Shown here: one piece after another, positions 44,067-50,987 of the stretch | Numbering within the stretch: position 1 is the stretch's first letter | How the letters are laid out: each line of letters begins with the position of its first letter | NCBI GenBank assembly: GCA_025517425.1 | Contig: JAOPJY010000001.1 | Span: 1,164,217-1,228,216, forward strand | Reading direction: 5' to 3' | Source of the DNA: Halobacteria archaeon AArc-dxtr1 | GTDB taxonomy: Archaea; Halobacteriota; Halobacteria; Halobacteriales; Natrialbaceae | DNA: 64,000 nt | The notes under the pieces: generated by a model | Databases searched by the model: none | The model's input: only the letters and a program-made list of their open reading frames with translations | What the model was told of the DNA's origin: nothing | Made by a program: the position numbers and the translations under genes

Positions 44067-45113
44067 TCAGCGATCGACCCGGAAGACGAGTACGTTCTGG
44101 TGAACCATCGACGGAACGAACGAGAAGGGGTAGCCGTAGACGTGGAGGTCCTTGGTCGGATCGTACCAGACAAGATTCGCGGCAAGGGTCACCGGTGCCC
44201 CAGCCTCGATTTCCCGGGCGAGATCAGCCGAGAGGAACTCGTAGGACTGCTCGCGGTACATGTCCCCGATGAAGACGACCAGGTGAGCGTCGTCGGTCAA
44301 CGCTCGGGTGAAGCGAGCGAACTTCTCGCCCATATCGGCGAGCCACTCGGCTTTCGTCTGTAACCCCGACCGAGAGTCGGTCGAGTCGGCAGCCGACGAT
44401 TCGTCGTCGGGCACCGCCTCGAACGAGCCGAGTTTGCTCGCCCGCGTCGCGCGCTCGTTTCGGGTCTGCTCGAGTTCGTCCATGTGCCAGTAGGGCACGT
44501 CCGTCAGGAGCAGGTCGACCGACTCGTCGGGCACGTCCGCGACGAGAGCTGCACAGTCTCCGTGACGAATGTCCTGTGCGGCAAGCGGGGACTGACCGCG
44601 GTCTCGGCGCGCGGCGTTTTCGCGCTCGAGGACGTCCCGGTAGCGGTCGATCCATCGTTCGGTTTGCTCGAAGCCGATCGCCTCGCGCAGGCCGGTCCCC
44701 TCGTGTTCACAGAGGCTCGCACCCAGAAGCGTGCCGCCGACGCCGGCGAAGGGATCGAGGACGGTATCGCCCGCCTTCGAGAAGCGCTCGATGAGATCGG
44801 CACAGAGTCGCGGTGGCTTCTGGCCGCCGTGTTCGCTTCGCAGCTCGTGTTGGAGATCCGGCGGGTAGCGTTCGGCGATCACGGACTTGGTAGCGTACTT
44901 CCACTCCCGGCCGGTGAGGTCGTTCACTCGGTTGCGTTCGTCGTAGATCCCGCGACCCTCGCGGTAGGTCTGGTAATCGGCCAGCTCGTCGGTGTCGACC
45001 ACCTCGCCGTCCTCAACCGGGAGGGAGTCCTCGCGGGCGCGCTCCGCGTCGAACCCACCGTCGTCGTCGGTCACGAGACGGCTCTGGCGGTGTCGCGGCT
45101 CCTCGTCGGCCAT
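44067..45113 (-). CDS. DNA methyltransferase (N4/N6 class, orphan)
   Basis: 348-residue SAM-dependent methylase. The SAM motif is LDPFAGVGGTLLGA; the catalytic motif reads TDVPYW where most N4/N6 enzymes have (D/S/T)-P-P-(Y/F), so the first Pro is Val. The N-terminus has the typical GREWKYATKSVIAERYPPDL region. No restriction endonuclease is adjacent, so it is an orphan methylase. It is divergent from the GST-like gene. Confidence 0.82.
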   Translation of the reverse strand: MADEEPRHRQSRLVTDDDGGFDAERAREDSLPVEDGEVVDTDELADYQTYREGRGIYDERNRVNDLTGREWKYATKSVIAERYPPDLQHELRSEHGGQKPPRLCADLIERFSKAGDTVLDPFAGVGGTLLGASLCEHEGTGLREAIGFEQTERWIDRYRDVLERENAARRDRGQSPLAAQDIRHGDCAALVADVPDESVDLLLTDVPYWHMDELEQTRNERATRASKLGSFEAVPDDESSAADSTDSRSGLQTKAEWLADMGEKFARFTRALTDDAHLVVFIGDMYREQSYEFLSADLAREIEAGAPVTLAANLVWYDPTKDLHVYGYPFSFVPSMVHQNVLVFRVDR

Positions 45114-46348: not shown

Positions 46349-47008
46349 ATGGAGCAGGGGGATCGAGATCGTGGACCGATCGGCGACCAGTTGGCCGATC
46401 TGAAGGGTGACGGTTGTAATCTGCTGGTAACCGGTAACGTCACACAGGACGTGACCTACCACGCGACCCGAACGCTGTTCGGTGCGAGCCAAGAGGGACG
46501 GGACCGCATTCTCGCCTGCACGGATCTCGAACCCGGAGCAAATCACTATCTCCGAACTGGATTCGACGCAGATCCGTCCGTCGTCTCTGCCAATAGCCTC
46601 CACCGAAGCGTGACCGTGACCGATCCCACACAGCCCGGAACGCCCCCCGACCGAGCCCTCCGACCGTTTCGAGCGCGAGTGTGTGGAAGGGTCGCCGACG
46701 CGGTCGAGGCGCGGGAGTCTGTCGGTGCTGGTCAATTGCGCCTCGGCGTATTGACACTGCGACCGATCGTGGAGCGATTCGAGCGAGACGAGGGCCGGAG
46801 GTTTCTACGCGTTCTCACCACGCTGGTAGACGGCGCGAGCGGAATCGGCCACTATCACCTGCCGGTTGCCGACGACGATGCGCTGGTCGAAACCTACGAC
46901 GACCTCTTCGACGCACGGATCGAACTCCGAAATCGTGAGGGCGCGCTCCCGGAGCACCGCTGGTACCTCCCGGAGACGAACCAACCGACCGACTGGTGGC
47001 CCCTGTAA
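46349..47008 (+). CDS. DUF7504 family protein (degenerate KaiC/RecA-like)
   Basis: 219 residues. It looks like a RecA/KaiC-type core: a P-loop-like start GCNLLVTGNVTQDV without the GK(S/T), later LRLGVLTLRPIVERF, and a Walker-B-like hydrophobic segment FLRVLTTLVDG. Missing Lys and Ser/Thr argue against ATP hydrolysis. It sits 1 bp before the CHAT protease gene. Start at 46349 (MEQGDRDRG), upstream in-frame sequence being unconvincing. Confidence 0.65.
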   Translation: MEQGDRDRGPIGDQLADLKGDGCNLLVTGNVTQDVTYHATRTLFGASQEGRDRILACTDLEPGANHYLRTGFDADPSVVSANSLHRSVTVTDPTQPGTPPDRALRPFRARVCGRVADAVEARESVGAGQLRLGVLTLRPIVERFERDEGRRFLRVLTTLVDGASGIGHYHLPVADDDALVETYDDLFDARIELRNREGALPEHRWYLPETNQPTDWWPL

Positions 47009-47009
47009 G

Positions 47010-49097
47010 ATGGCCTCCGAGATCCGCCGTCCCGAGATCGACGACACGGGAGATTGCCAGATCGAAGTCCGAGATCCGGTCGAACGCTCCTCGTTGGGGT
47101 TTTCGTTCCCGGAACCGGTCGCGATCGAACCCATCGAGACGGACGACTTCCATTTCCCCGTCGAGACGGCCGTCCGGTTCGCAGCATCAGCGATCGAGTG
47201 TGAGACGATCAGAGACGTCCACGTCTGGACGGGAGACGGCGAGTTCGTCGCCGAGTCGACCAACGGCGAGGCGCTCATGCTTCCAGCCGAGGAGTACCTC
47301 ATCGACGTCGCAGGATCGATCAAATGCAACTTTCGGGTGACGGCCCCACTGCAGGTGCTCTCTGACGGGGAGCGAACCTCGATCGGCTTTGAGCGGGAGA
47401 CGACCGTCGAGCTTGGAATCCGATCGCTTCACGAGCGCCCGCGAGGAGCGATTACGGTCAGCGAGAGTCCCTACTCGTTGCTGGAGGCACTCTCGTATCT
47501 GGGCGACTCGCTACAGACGCTCTCACCAGATCGCTCGTTTCCGACGCTCCGGGGCCACCCCCCGCGATTCGAGCGCGGGGACTCCCTCGAGATTCCCGAC
47601 GGGCTCTCGAAGCCCGACACCGGGATCCAGCTGCAGCTCCCGCCGTCGCGGCGCTACCTCTATCCGGCGACGACGCTCGCGTACTACCTCGGCGCCGAGA
47701 TCGTTCCGGGGCGAGAGCCGCGGCTGGTCGCCGACCGGCAGAGCCACGATCTGGGCAGCGACGAGATTTCGTACGACCGTGCGGTGTCGCGAATCCTCCA
47801 GCACGTCTTCTTCTTGGACTGTCTGACCCGAACCGAGGGGATGGTCAAGGCGCCGTTACACGAGCGCTCGACGTTCGAACGCCGGTTGGCAGAGACCGAT
47901 CTCGGCCCGGACGCGGTCGACTTCGCAGCGCTGTACGAGGCGCCGATCGACGAGCGCGTCGCGCGCTACCTCGAGATTCCCTTCGAGGCCGTCGTCGACG
48001 ACCTCCCCGAGTGGCGTCTCACTGCGGACGTCCAGCCCGACCCCGAGTACCTCGAATCACTGCCCTACCTCGCCGCAGATCTCGCGATCGTCCGCTGTCG
48101 CGATCCGACCCCGGTCGACGACCTGCCGGAGACGCCAGAACCCGTTCGGGACTTCTTCCGCGACGGGACGCTCGAGGAGACAGACATCTCGTTCGTCGAC
48201 CTCCCGAAGGCCTGGTCGGTCGAGCAGACGTTCGTCGGCGACGCGAACCCGATCGCTGCGTCGAAGGCTACGCTGGAATCGTTCCGCAGCAAGTTCGACC
48301 GAACCGCCACGCGGTCTGACGACGTCACGGTAACCGTGATCGTTAACGACGACCGCATGGGAAAAGAGCGCGAGGCGGTCCGAGAGCGCTACCGCGCGCT
48401 CGAAGAGCAGGGTGCGACGGTGACCGTCGCGACGGACGCCAGCGTCGACCGCATCGCCGACATCCTCGGCGGAGACGACGACTTCATCCACTACATCGGC
48501 CACGTCGACCGGGAGGGGCTGGAGTGCCCCGACGGCCACTTCGACACCACGGAAAACGGCCCCTACGGCGTCGATGCCTTCATCCTGAACGGCTGCCAGT
48601 CCTACGCGCAAGGTGAGGGACTGGTCCGGGGTGGCTGCGTCGCCGGCGTCGTCACCACCTCGAAGGTGCTCAACGAGCCCGCCGTCGAAATCGGCGCCAC
48701 CTTCGCCCGCCTGCTCACCGACGGCTTCACGATGGCGGCTGCAACCGACGTCGCCAGCCGCCAGCGGCTGGTCGGCAACCAGTACCTCGTCATCGGCGAG
48801 GGTAGCTTTCGGGTTGCCGAGCGGGAGAACGGGACGCCGACAATGTGCCAGCTCGAGGATCGTGAGGACGGATCCTGGGATCTAACGATGAAGACCTACC
48901 CTGCATCAGACATGGACATGGGGACATTGATAACACCACATATCCCCGGAGTTAATGAAAGATATCTAACATCAGGAACTATTGATACACTACATGTTAA
49001 AAGAGAGGAATTGCGTGCGTTTTTAGAACCGACCTCATTCCCAGTGGAACATTGCGGCGATCTAGTGTGGAGTAATGAACTAATCACACAGATATAG
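47010..49097 (+). CDS. CHAT-domain (caspase-like) protease
   Basis: 695-residue protein with an N-terminal beta-rich region (residues ~1-180), a middle domain and a C-terminal CHAT domain. The catalytic dyad is seen as His498 in HYIGHVDREG and Cys529 in LNGCQSY, both at expected spacing. CHAT proteases (caspase HetF-associated) include Craspase and gasdermin activators. Starts 1 bp after DUF7504, so the two are one operon. The last ~65 residues are encoded by AT-rich DNA (from ~48890) unlike the preceding GC-rich part. Confidence 0.82.
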   Translation: MASEIRRPEIDDTGDCQIEVRDPVERSSLGFSFPEPVAIEPIETDDFHFPVETAVRFAASAIECETIRDVHVWTGDGEFVAESTNGEALMLPAEEYLIDVAGSIKCNFRVTAPLQVLSDGERTSIGFERETTVELGIRSLHERPRGAITVSESPYSLLEALSYLGDSLQTLSPDRSFPTLRGHPPRFERGDSLEIPDGLSKPDTGIQLQLPPSRRYLYPATTLAYYLGAEIVPGREPRLVADRQSHDLGSDEISYDRAVSRILQHVFFLDCLTRTEGMVKAPLHERSTFERRLAETDLGPDAVDFAALYEAPIDERVARYLEIPFEAVVDDLPEWRLTADVQPDPEYLESLPYLAADLAIVRCRDPTPVDDLPETPEPVRDFFRDGTLEETDISFVDLPKAWSVEQTFVGDANPIAASKATLESFRSKFDRTATRSDDVTVTVIVNDDRMGKEREAVRERYRALEEQGATVTVATDASVDRIADILGGDDDFIHYIGHVDREGLECPDGHFDTTENGPYGVDAFILNGCQSYAQGEGLVRGGCVAGVVTTSKVLNEPAVEIGATFARLLTDGFTMAAATDVASRQRLVGNQYLVIGEGSFRVAERENGTPTMCQLEDREDGSWDLTMKTYPASDMDMGTLITPHIPGVNERYLTSGTIDTLHVKREELRAFLEPTSFPVEHCGDLVWSNELITQI

Positions 49098-49100
49098 CCG

Positions 49101-49247
49101 TTAGGGACCAGGATACGAGGAGGAAGTCGCCGCCACAGAACCAACCTGTGACAGCGCCAGCATCACAGCGAACACGGCGCCAATCATGCGCGGGTTGTTT
49201 TTGAGGTACGAGACGATTCGACCGTCGGAGTTGTCCTGAGTGGACAT
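49101..49247 (-). CDS. DUF7503 family small membrane protein
   Basis: 48 residues: MSTQDNSDGRIVSYLKNNPR, then a hydrophobic helix MIGAVFAVMLALSQVGSVA and a short tail ending SSSYPGP. The NPRMIG-type start and the single helix match the haloarchaeal DUF7503 peptide family that I associate with DUF7504/CHAT genes. It is convergent with the CHAT gene, their stop codons only 3 bp apart. The AT-rich upstream region (49248-49394) can serve as its promoter. Confidence 0.7.
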   Translation of the reverse strand: MSTQDNSDGRIVSYLKNNPRMIGAVFAVMLALSQVGSVAATSSSYPGP

Positions 49248-49394
49248 ACGACAACCGAGGGCCGGGGATTATATTATATTATTTTAATACTTCGTAGTAG
49301 AATAATAAACAAGTAATTGTAAATGTGTGTGTAGGAATACCATTCAGGCAATATCAGCGGATCCCGAATCGAAGTCTCCAGGGCGGCAGTCGGG

Positions 49395-50987
49395 TTAGAA
49401 ACGACGTTCCGAGGGGATCTCGACGCCGCTGATCTCGAATCTGGCGCCGCCGTCGCGGCTTTCACAGAGGTCGACGTCCCACTCGTGGGCCTCACAGACG
49501 TGTTCGACGATGTTGAGCCCGAAGCCACCCTCTTCGTCGGTGCCGGAGTAGCCGATGTCGAAGATTTCGTCTCGCTTCTCGGGTGGGATTCCGTCGCCAT
49601 CGTCGGCAACGGCGAAGCCGGAGCGCTCAGAGAGACGGGTAACGCAAACGGTTACGTCGGAGCCACCGTGTTCGACGGCGTTGCGAAACAGGTTCTCGAA
49701 GAGGTGCTTGAGTCGGCCTCGGTCGGCCTCGAGTTCGACGCTTCGTCTGACCTCGAGTGTGGCGGTGGCGGTCTGGACGTTGTCCCAACACTCCTGGGCG
49801 ACGGTGGCGAGATCGACCTGCTCGGCGCTGCCGAGGCCGTGGCCCTGCTCGGCGAAGGCCATGACGTTCTCGATGATCTCGAACGCCCGCGAGTGGGCCG
49901 TGTCGATTTTCTCCACGTGGCGCGAGTCACCGTGTTCGGCGCGGATGAGTTCGAGGTGGCCGTTGGCAACGTTCAGGGGGCTACGCAGGTCGTGGGAAAC
50001 GATGTTGGCGATCTGGGAGAGGCGATCGACCTCGGTCTCTAAGTTTCGTTCGCGCTCGCGAAGCATGGCCTCGCGCTCGCTGCGATCCAGGGTGACGGTG
50101 AGGTTCGAGGCGAGCACCTCGACGAGCGTCCGGTCGGTGAGATCGAAGGGCGTGTCCTCCTGGGAGCCGGCGATCAGGACACCGTGATCACCGAGCGGGA
50201 TGAACATCTCGTTGCGGATCGCCGTCTCCGGATTGTAGACGTCGGGATCACTCGACACGTCCTGAACGAACGCCGAAGCGCCGTTGTCGTAGACGCGCCA
50301 GGCGATGCTCGAACCGGGCTCGAACGACGGGGCACCGTCACAGAGAACCGAGAGGGAGTCGCTGACGGCGACGGGTTCGAGGGAGTCGGTCGTCTCCTGG
50401 TAGCGGTAGATTGCGGTGAGTTCCACCCCGAGGATGTCACAGGCAGCCTCGACACCGATTTCACAGACGCGTTCGACGCTCTCGGCGGCGAGGGCAGTCC
50501 GCGTCGTCTGGTGGAGAGCGGTGAGTTGGCGCTCGCGGGCCTTCCCGCGCTTTTCTGCACGGTAGCGTTCGACGACGTTGTGGATTCGATTCGCGAGGAC
50601 GGTGTACTGATCGGTGCCGGTTTCCTTCTGTAGGTAGTCGGTGACGCCCCGAGAGATTGCCTCGCTGGCGACCTCCTCAGAGCCCTTTCCGGTAAAGAGA
50701 ATAAAGGGCAACGACGGGTACGATTCCCGTACCTCGTCTAGAAACTCGAGCCCGTCCATCCCGGGCATCTCGTAGTCGCTGACGATACAATCGATCTGAT
50801 GCTCGGCGAGCAGTTCGAGGCCCTCGTGGGCGCCGGGTGCGACGATGGTCGAGAGCGAGTCGGACTCGCGTTCGAGAAACTCGCCGACGAGCTGGCCGAG
50901 GCTCGTATCGTCGTCGACGCACAACACCCGTACCGGCGGCGGCTCGACCGACGGCGCGGTGATCGACCGTTCCGACGCATTCCCCAT
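49395..50987 (-). CDS. Hybrid response regulator-GAF-histidine kinase
   Basis: 530-residue signalling protein: receiver domain (residues ~17-135, with the phosphoacceptor Asp in IVSDYEMPGMDG and K in FTGKG), GAF domain (~155-300), and a histidine kinase with H-box SHDLRSPLNVANGHLEL, N-box LFENLFRNAVEHGG and G-boxes VADDGDGIPP and GGFGLNIVEH. A typical haloarchaeal cytosolic sensor; no transmembrane helix. The input signal and output partner are unknown. The gene stands alone on the minus strand. Confidence 0.9.
   Translation of the reverse strand: MGNASERSITAPSVEPPPVRVLCVDDDTSLGQLVGEFLERESDSLSTIVAPGAHEGLELLAEHQIDCIVSDYEMPGMDGLEFLDEVRESYPSLPFILFTGKGSEEVASEAISRGVTDYLQKETGTDQYTVLANRIHNVVERYRAEKRGKARERQLTALHQTTRTALAAESVERVCEIGVEAACDILGVELTAIYRYQETTDSLEPVAVSDSLSVLCDGAPSFEPGSSIAWRVYDNGASAFVQDVSSDPDVYNPETAIRNEMFIPLGDHGVLIAGSQEDTPFDLTDRTLVEVLASNLTVTLDRSEREAMLRERERNLETEVDRLSQIANIVSHDLRSPLNVANGHLELIRAEHGDSRHVEKIDTAHSRAFEIIENVMAFAEQGHGLGSAEQVDLATVAQECWDNVQTATATLEVRRSVELEADRGRLKHLFENLFRNAVEHGGSDVTVCVTRLSERSGFAVADDGDGIPPEKRDEIFDIGYSGTDEEGGFGLNIVEHVCEAHEWDVDLCESRDGGARFEISGVEIPSERRF

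Follow-up and report, generated by a model that had tools for sequence, protein, structure and literature searches.

What would a predicted cysteine peptidase of haloarchaea do with a 48-residue peptide that is encoded tail to tail with it on the opposite strand? This question is raised by a locus of Halobacteria archaeon AArc-dxtr1 (Natrialbaceae; assembly GCA_025517425.1), contained in a stretch of 64,000 nucleotides (contig JAOPJY010000001.1, positions 1,164,217 to 1,228,216, forward strand) that is called the window here and whose numbering is used for the locus. An initial annotation, made from the DNA letters alone, had proposed a gene for a DUF7504 protein, a CHAT protease gene and a gene for a small DUF7503 membrane peptide. 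All three open reading frames (ORFs) lie where it had placed them, with 1 bp between the DUF7504 and CHAT ORFs, both on the plus strand, and 3 bp between the CHAT stop and the convergent DUF7503 ORF. Both family numbers were confirmed by Pfam, as the 219-residue protein matched PF24336 (DUF7504; E 1.5e-34, 120.5 bits against a curated cut-off of 27) and the 48-residue peptide matched PF24335 (DUF7503; E 2.9e-17, 62.4 bits, cut-off 27). We consider it about an even chance that the locus is a haloarchaeal two-part proteolytic module, made up of a CHAT peptidase and a dedicated client peptide from the opposite strand whose C-terminal Gly-Pro (GP) tail is recognised. The features of the locus are the following.

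46349..47008, plus strand: DUF7504 protein of 219 residues (PF24336), encoded by an accessory gene that ends 1 bp before the CHAT ORF (ORF and Pfam match)
47010..49097, plus strand: predicted CHAT-fold cysteine peptidase of 695 residues (fold matches, Pfam CHAT matches of its relatives)
47010..48014, plus strand: N-terminal region, residues 1-335, with a beta-sandwich (about 5-141) and an alpha/beta part (structure model)
48012..48827, plus strand: predicted CHAT / clan CD peptidase domain, residues 335-606 (Z scores against known structures)
48501..48503, plus strand: codon of the predicted catalytic His498, HYIGH motif (invariant, 145/145)
48594..48596, plus strand: codon of the predicted catalytic Cys529, LNGCQSY motif (invariant, 145/145)
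49101..49247, minus strand: DUF7503 peptide of 48 residues, its gene running towards the CHAT gene with the two stop codons 3 bp apart (ORF and Pfam match)
49125..49190, minus strand: likely transmembrane or signal-peptide-like h-region (about residues 20-41) with an A-x-A-like c-region at its end (sequence by eye, family alignment)
49104..49109, minus strand: C-terminal Gly-Pro codons of the peptide, which ends TSSSYPGP (partner tail statistics)
49248..49310, minus strand: AT-rich stretch directly upstream of the peptide start codon, presumably its own promoter (sequence)

The large protein gave little by sequence comparison. It matched no Pfam family up to an E value of 1, and a sequence-only search against the Protein Data Bank (PDB) returned nothing useful. 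NCBIfam and PADLOC had no match for it, for the DUF7504 protein or for the DUF7503 peptide, and PHROGs gave one chance-level match, to the 695-residue protein. Among 32 relatives of this protein, 18 matched the Pfam CHAT family (PF12770; best E 2.1e-5). An AlphaFold2 model was built on a 32-sequence alignment (mean pLDDT, the confidence score of the model, 84), and in a Foldseek search against the PDB its top matches were SAVED-CHAT, separase and gingipain. In a second alignment, residues 335-606 matched SAVED-CHAT with a Z score of 18.8 (rmsd 2.3 over 171 residues), RgpB with 16.4, separase with 15.9 and the Craspase TPR-CHAT protein with 14.2. The His498/Cys529 dyad is where the initial annotation had put it; in the model, His498 follows the strand 492-496 and Cys529 the strand 523-527, as expected for the fold. 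Both residues are invariant in 145/145 haloarchaeal sequences, paralogues included, which argues that catalysis is under selection. When dyad loss was sought in CHAT genes lacking a partner or having a partner without GP, none was found. Fold and dyad together predict that the protein is a CHAT-fold cysteine peptidase. Its N-terminal 335 residues are modelled as a beta-sandwich followed by an alpha/beta part, so that this half of the window protein is predicted to be non-TPR, and no PDB entry, known sensor domains included, matched them above a Z score of 7.6.

Linkage of the two genes was followed in 61 genomes of 58 genera, picked to spread across genera, with part of their CHAT matches analysed. 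Of the 88 DUF7503 copies, 87 were no more than 280 bp away from a CHAT match, for a chance expectation of about 0.0007 per copy, and the two genes were convergent in all pairs analysed. DUF7503 was found in haloarchaea only, and it is present in the control genome of Haloferax volcanii. The exception among the 88 is an orphan DUF7503-like peptide ending GIGP (L322, 4024-4215), with no CHAT gene in the surrounding 9 kb. In one genome, two tandem DUF7503 copies stand next to a single CHAT gene (G012:C1:486534-486796). The adjacency expected by the initial annotation thus holds for DUF7503 and CHAT; for DUF7504 it extends to only about half of one branch of the CHAT family and to none of the other. 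These branches were seen in a FastTree tree of 144 CHAT proteins, in which the support values are local and the deep branching order is therefore approximate: clade A has 96 members, and clade B has 48. The DUF7503 partner accompanies 84/96 genes of clade A, and the DUF7503 profile was matched in 2/48 of clade B. When a partner was called by a profile match or a GP ending in a window of -60 to +300 bp, a convergent partner was found at 111/144 CHAT genes, with an end-to-end offset of the two ORFs most often between -4 and +20 bp. Linkage and invariant dyad make it natural to read these sequences as a functional protease accompanied by a small partner of its own.

The partners themselves are of several kinds. 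The DUF7503 helix is strongly conserved, with invariant or near-invariant G, F, L, Q, G and A. Other membrane peptides that the DUF7503 model does not cover occupy the same convergent slot and also end in GP (for example GASTGP and VIEPGP). Clade B has soluble, often basic peptides of 38-66 residues ending [V/I]STY[G/S]GP, such as STYGGP. The Haloplanus partners are soluble too and consist of a tandem 13-residue unit, x[N/T]ADGN[G/S][G/S][G/A][I/V]SGP, in 2 to 13 copies; repeat partners of this type, with units ending ISGP or VSGP, overlap the CHAT gene by 4 bp in L216, L009, L013, L015, L020, L025, L243 and L252, the genus being taken from the named loci L243 and L252. The pair also occurs in Haloferax species, whose peptide ends in VIYGP or a near variant of it. 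GP forms the C-terminus of 101/111 partners, and position -4 of the tail favours Y, T, I and V. What most of the partners share is the C-terminal Gly-Pro tail and not the membrane helix: the dedicated small partner proposed initially stands, supported by linkage and dyad, while its second part, a membrane effector as a common feature, has to be modified for the soluble and repeat partners. Since these sit in the same slot, a pore-forming membrane effector would account for only some partners.

In order to count endings independently of a partner choice that uses GP, the enrichment test included every small ORF. In clade A, 76/225 small ORFs of the convergent tail end in GP versus 35/5348 elsewhere in the same loci (Fisher p 4e-84), and in clade B 23/103 versus 5/2432 (Fisher p 7e-29). 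Same-strand tail ORFs end in GP in 1/205 cases in clade A and 1/86 in clade B. All four GGN codons for Gly, all four CCN codons for Pro and all three stops are used in the tails; since these codons vary freely, the constraint acts on the protein. For the same reason, and because third codon positions vary most, the idea that DUF7503 is a DNA-level element was rejected. Among CHAT residues, position 338 alone distinguished the proteins with GP partners from those with GP-less partners, and only weakly.

These sequence patterns are best explained if the GP tail is the mark of a client dedicated to the CHAT peptidase, as its substrate or its ligand. The peptidase would recognise a short C-terminal tail of approximately [S/T/G]-[Y/T/I/V]-x-Gly-Pro-COOH, and the body of the client, be it a membrane helix, a basic soluble peptide or a tandem repeat, would be interchangeable cargo. 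Upon a trigger, the peptidase might cut the client so that its body is freed or removed; cleavage is suggested by the invariant dyad and by the precedent of Craspase, in which the CHAT protein no longer cleaves a Csx30 that lacks its last 20 residues (PMC10028731). The arrangement of the two genes, with 3' ends that converge and almost meet, may help to keep the two transcripts apart, possibly making them mutually antisense, and DUF7504, where present, would be a co-expressed accessory or regulator. If the client reading is true, this would be a natural case of a protease family that keeps a short tail while the body swaps among helix, basic peptide and repeats.

Several observations weigh against a tail-recognising CHAT peptidase with a dedicated client. 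About 32/144 CHAT genes have no visible partner and keep the dyad, which means that the enzyme can act without an adjacent client. Ten partners lack GP, a single CHAT subclade accounting for seven, and have ends such as GTIR, TTIV, STIG and TID; we infer that these would be the same tail minus the final dipeptide. The clade-B partners were partly picked for their GP ending. Finally, the positive-inside rule would put the DUF7503 tail outside the cell, and the CHAT protein has no obvious signal peptide or helix.

The GP-less partners of this subclade are in L102, L115, L117, L121, L133, L134 and L140. As for the genes without a partner, three in clade A stand in tandem with a CHAT gene that does have one. 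Tandem CHAT gene pairs occur in L109, L112, L209, L273, L292 and L310, and one of the two genes is partnered in L109, L112 and L209. Judged by the intergenic gaps, partner loss is clean: clade-B CHAT genes that have a partner are mostly followed by about 330-560 bp before the next gene, those that lack one mostly by 60-260 bp, and exceptions occur in both directions. L195, counted as partnerless, does contain a reading frame for a membrane peptide whose end is DPGPEPIRD.

The same partners can be read in other ways. The small genes might encode precursors of secreted, pheromone-like signals, the membrane bodies being signal peptides cut after an A-x-A-like site to leave 6-25 residues ending in GP, and the CHAT protein being an intracellular receptor or a processing peptidase. 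In membrane-type partners, including those missed by Pfam DUF7503, the c-region does carry small residues in an A-x-A-like pattern, and the sequence then varies up to the constant GP at its end. The Haloplanus arrays, with every unit ending SGP, resemble multi-copy pheromone precursors, and RRNPP systems likewise set a propeptide gene beside that of an intracellular receptor (PMC10075063). However, the conservation of the DUF7503 helix exceeds the needs of a signal peptide, signal peptides are absent from the soluble and repeat partners, the N-terminal region of the CHAT protein is not a TPR receptor, and the invariant dyad calls for catalysis. We regard signal precursors as rather unlikely. 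Similarly doubtful is the broader proposal that short GP-ending peptides, on signal-peptide-like, soluble or repeat precursors, are made or read by CHAT peptidases throughout the haloarchaea as a peptide-hormone-like or peptide-triggered protease pathway; if the signals were real, they would bring peptide signalling to archaea, where cell-cell signalling is largely unexplored. We judge it quite improbable that the peptide inhibits the CHAT peptidase or anchors it to the membrane, its tail lying in the active-site groove as a pseudosubstrate, like securin in separase, and repeats raising avidity. Separase is among the nearest folds, the beta-branched or aromatic residue frequent at position -4 suits strand addition in the groove, and tandem repeats are plausible for an inhibitor, but the losses of the partner with the dyad kept would leave an uninhibited protease.

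A gasdermin-like or toxin module, in which CHAT cutting would activate the membrane peptide as a killer in defence or programmed death, was the direction taken by the initial annotation. A small single-helix peptide next to a CHAT protease fits such a module, as do the bacterial gasdermins, whose pore protein is held inactive by a short C-terminal peptide (PMC10989679), and the caspase-like activity reported in Haloferax (PMC3615174). Nevertheless, the idea fits membrane-type partners only, many partners having no helix, and a family present in 92% of genomes, with chromosomal synteny of one branch, is unlike a defence cassette; the three proteins are also without a PADLOC match. We therefore hold this reading to be distinctly improbable. 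A location near defence genes was not borne out either: PADLOC matched the methyltransferase alone among six flanking genes, and clade B adjoins TbsP-like regulators. A role in physiology, not defence, is indicated by the near-universal presence and by the synteny that is fixed in one branch.

The presence figure comes from a class-wide search with the window protein as query, in which matches were ranked by likeness to it and the loci studied were among the best matches listed. CHAT homologues were found in 223/242 haloarchaeal genomes (92%) and 66/74 genera, usually with 1-7 copies per genome; the genome of the window has three. The setting of clade B is conserved: a gene for a TbsP-like regulator lies downstream in nearly all loci, and folD is a frequent neighbour. 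Outside Halobacteria, a phylum-wide sample gave homologues in one family only (four genomes, E about 1e-70), none with a small GP-ended partner of the haloarchaeal type at its tail. Three of the four keep the dyad, and in the fourth (L320, 3764-5824, minus strand) both residues are, by eye, apparently replaced. Beside one of the four, a 151-residue convergent ORF ends in GP by happenstance. The peptidase is carried by 25 haloarchaeal plasmid records, where it is mostly annotated as a hypothetical protein, and phage records gave no match. With the near-universal presence, this led us to reject a mobile or viral cassette as the main habitat.

The first gene of the locus is an optional accessory of the CHAT module. 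DUF7504 lies next to roughly half of the 96 CHAT genes of clade A and to 0/48 of clade B, and in 25 genomes it occurs in 3-15 copies per genome, mostly away from CHAT genes, which makes it an accessory that is not specific to the module. The initial description of a KaiC-like protein that had lost its P-loop Lys was not confirmed. Comparison by hhalign with KaiC/RecA-type proteins of the same genome gave weak probabilities of 0.2-22%; a P-loop is absent from the DUF7504 sequence of the window, and with such probabilities the loss of its Lys cannot be asserted. One 217-residue protein of the same genome scored weakly with both Pfam families compared.

Around the locus, the flanking genes include a GST, a histidine kinase and the methyltransferase. 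The latter is a Type II DNA methyltransferase (44067-45113, minus strand), two genes upstream of DUF7504 (PADLOC PDLC03284, E 1.5e-191), and a hybrid response regulator-GAF-histidine kinase gene (49395-50987, minus strand) adjoins the peptide gene. At 48900-49300, codon usage and GC turn sharply AT-rich from the final 200 bp of the CHAT gene onwards, possibly reflecting recombination or a promoter region. Over the 144 loci, mean GC drops toward the CHAT stop and is 0.47-0.50 at 120-240 bp beyond it.

Among the papers searched, none dealt with DUF7503, DUF7504 or haloarchaeal CHAT proteins, and the CHAT peptidase with its GP-tailed peptide looks like an undescribed system of protease and dedicated peptide with membrane, soluble and tandem-repeat versions. 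With SAVED-CHAT and the Craspase TPR-CHAT protein (Csx29) it shares the clan-CD fold and the His/Cys dyad, and Craspase recognises its substrate Csx30 through the C-terminal part; unlike them, the haloarchaeal system has no SAVED, TPR or Cas7-11, its putative client is tiny, convergent and GP-tailed, and it is near-universal rather than a CRISPR cassette. In bacterial gasdermin systems, too, a membrane-active protein that has a short C-terminal tail is paired with a neighbouring protease, whereas DUF7503 is a 48-residue peptide with one helix and no family match other than DUF7503, and other haloarchaeal partners have no membrane helix. The RRNPP systems resemble it in the tiny gene beside a large one, the conserved end of a short C-terminal segment and the possible precursor repeats, but they belong to Firmicutes, and the large haloarchaeal protein is a predicted CHAT peptidase and not a TPR receptor. 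Separase and securin also pair a clan-CD peptidase with a dedicated small regulator, although there is no sequence relation and the haloarchaeal partner is far smaller. The closest comparison in the organisms themselves is the caspase-like activity of Haloferax volcanii, described more than a decade ago when archaea were said to lack homologues (PMC3615174). It was described biochemically, with no gene assigned to it; it is of a clan-CD type that CHAT genes could supply, and Haloferax species carry the pair. With an invariant clan-CD dyad, a candidate client and members in Haloferax, the family makes this orphan activity testable by deletion in a tractable archaeon.

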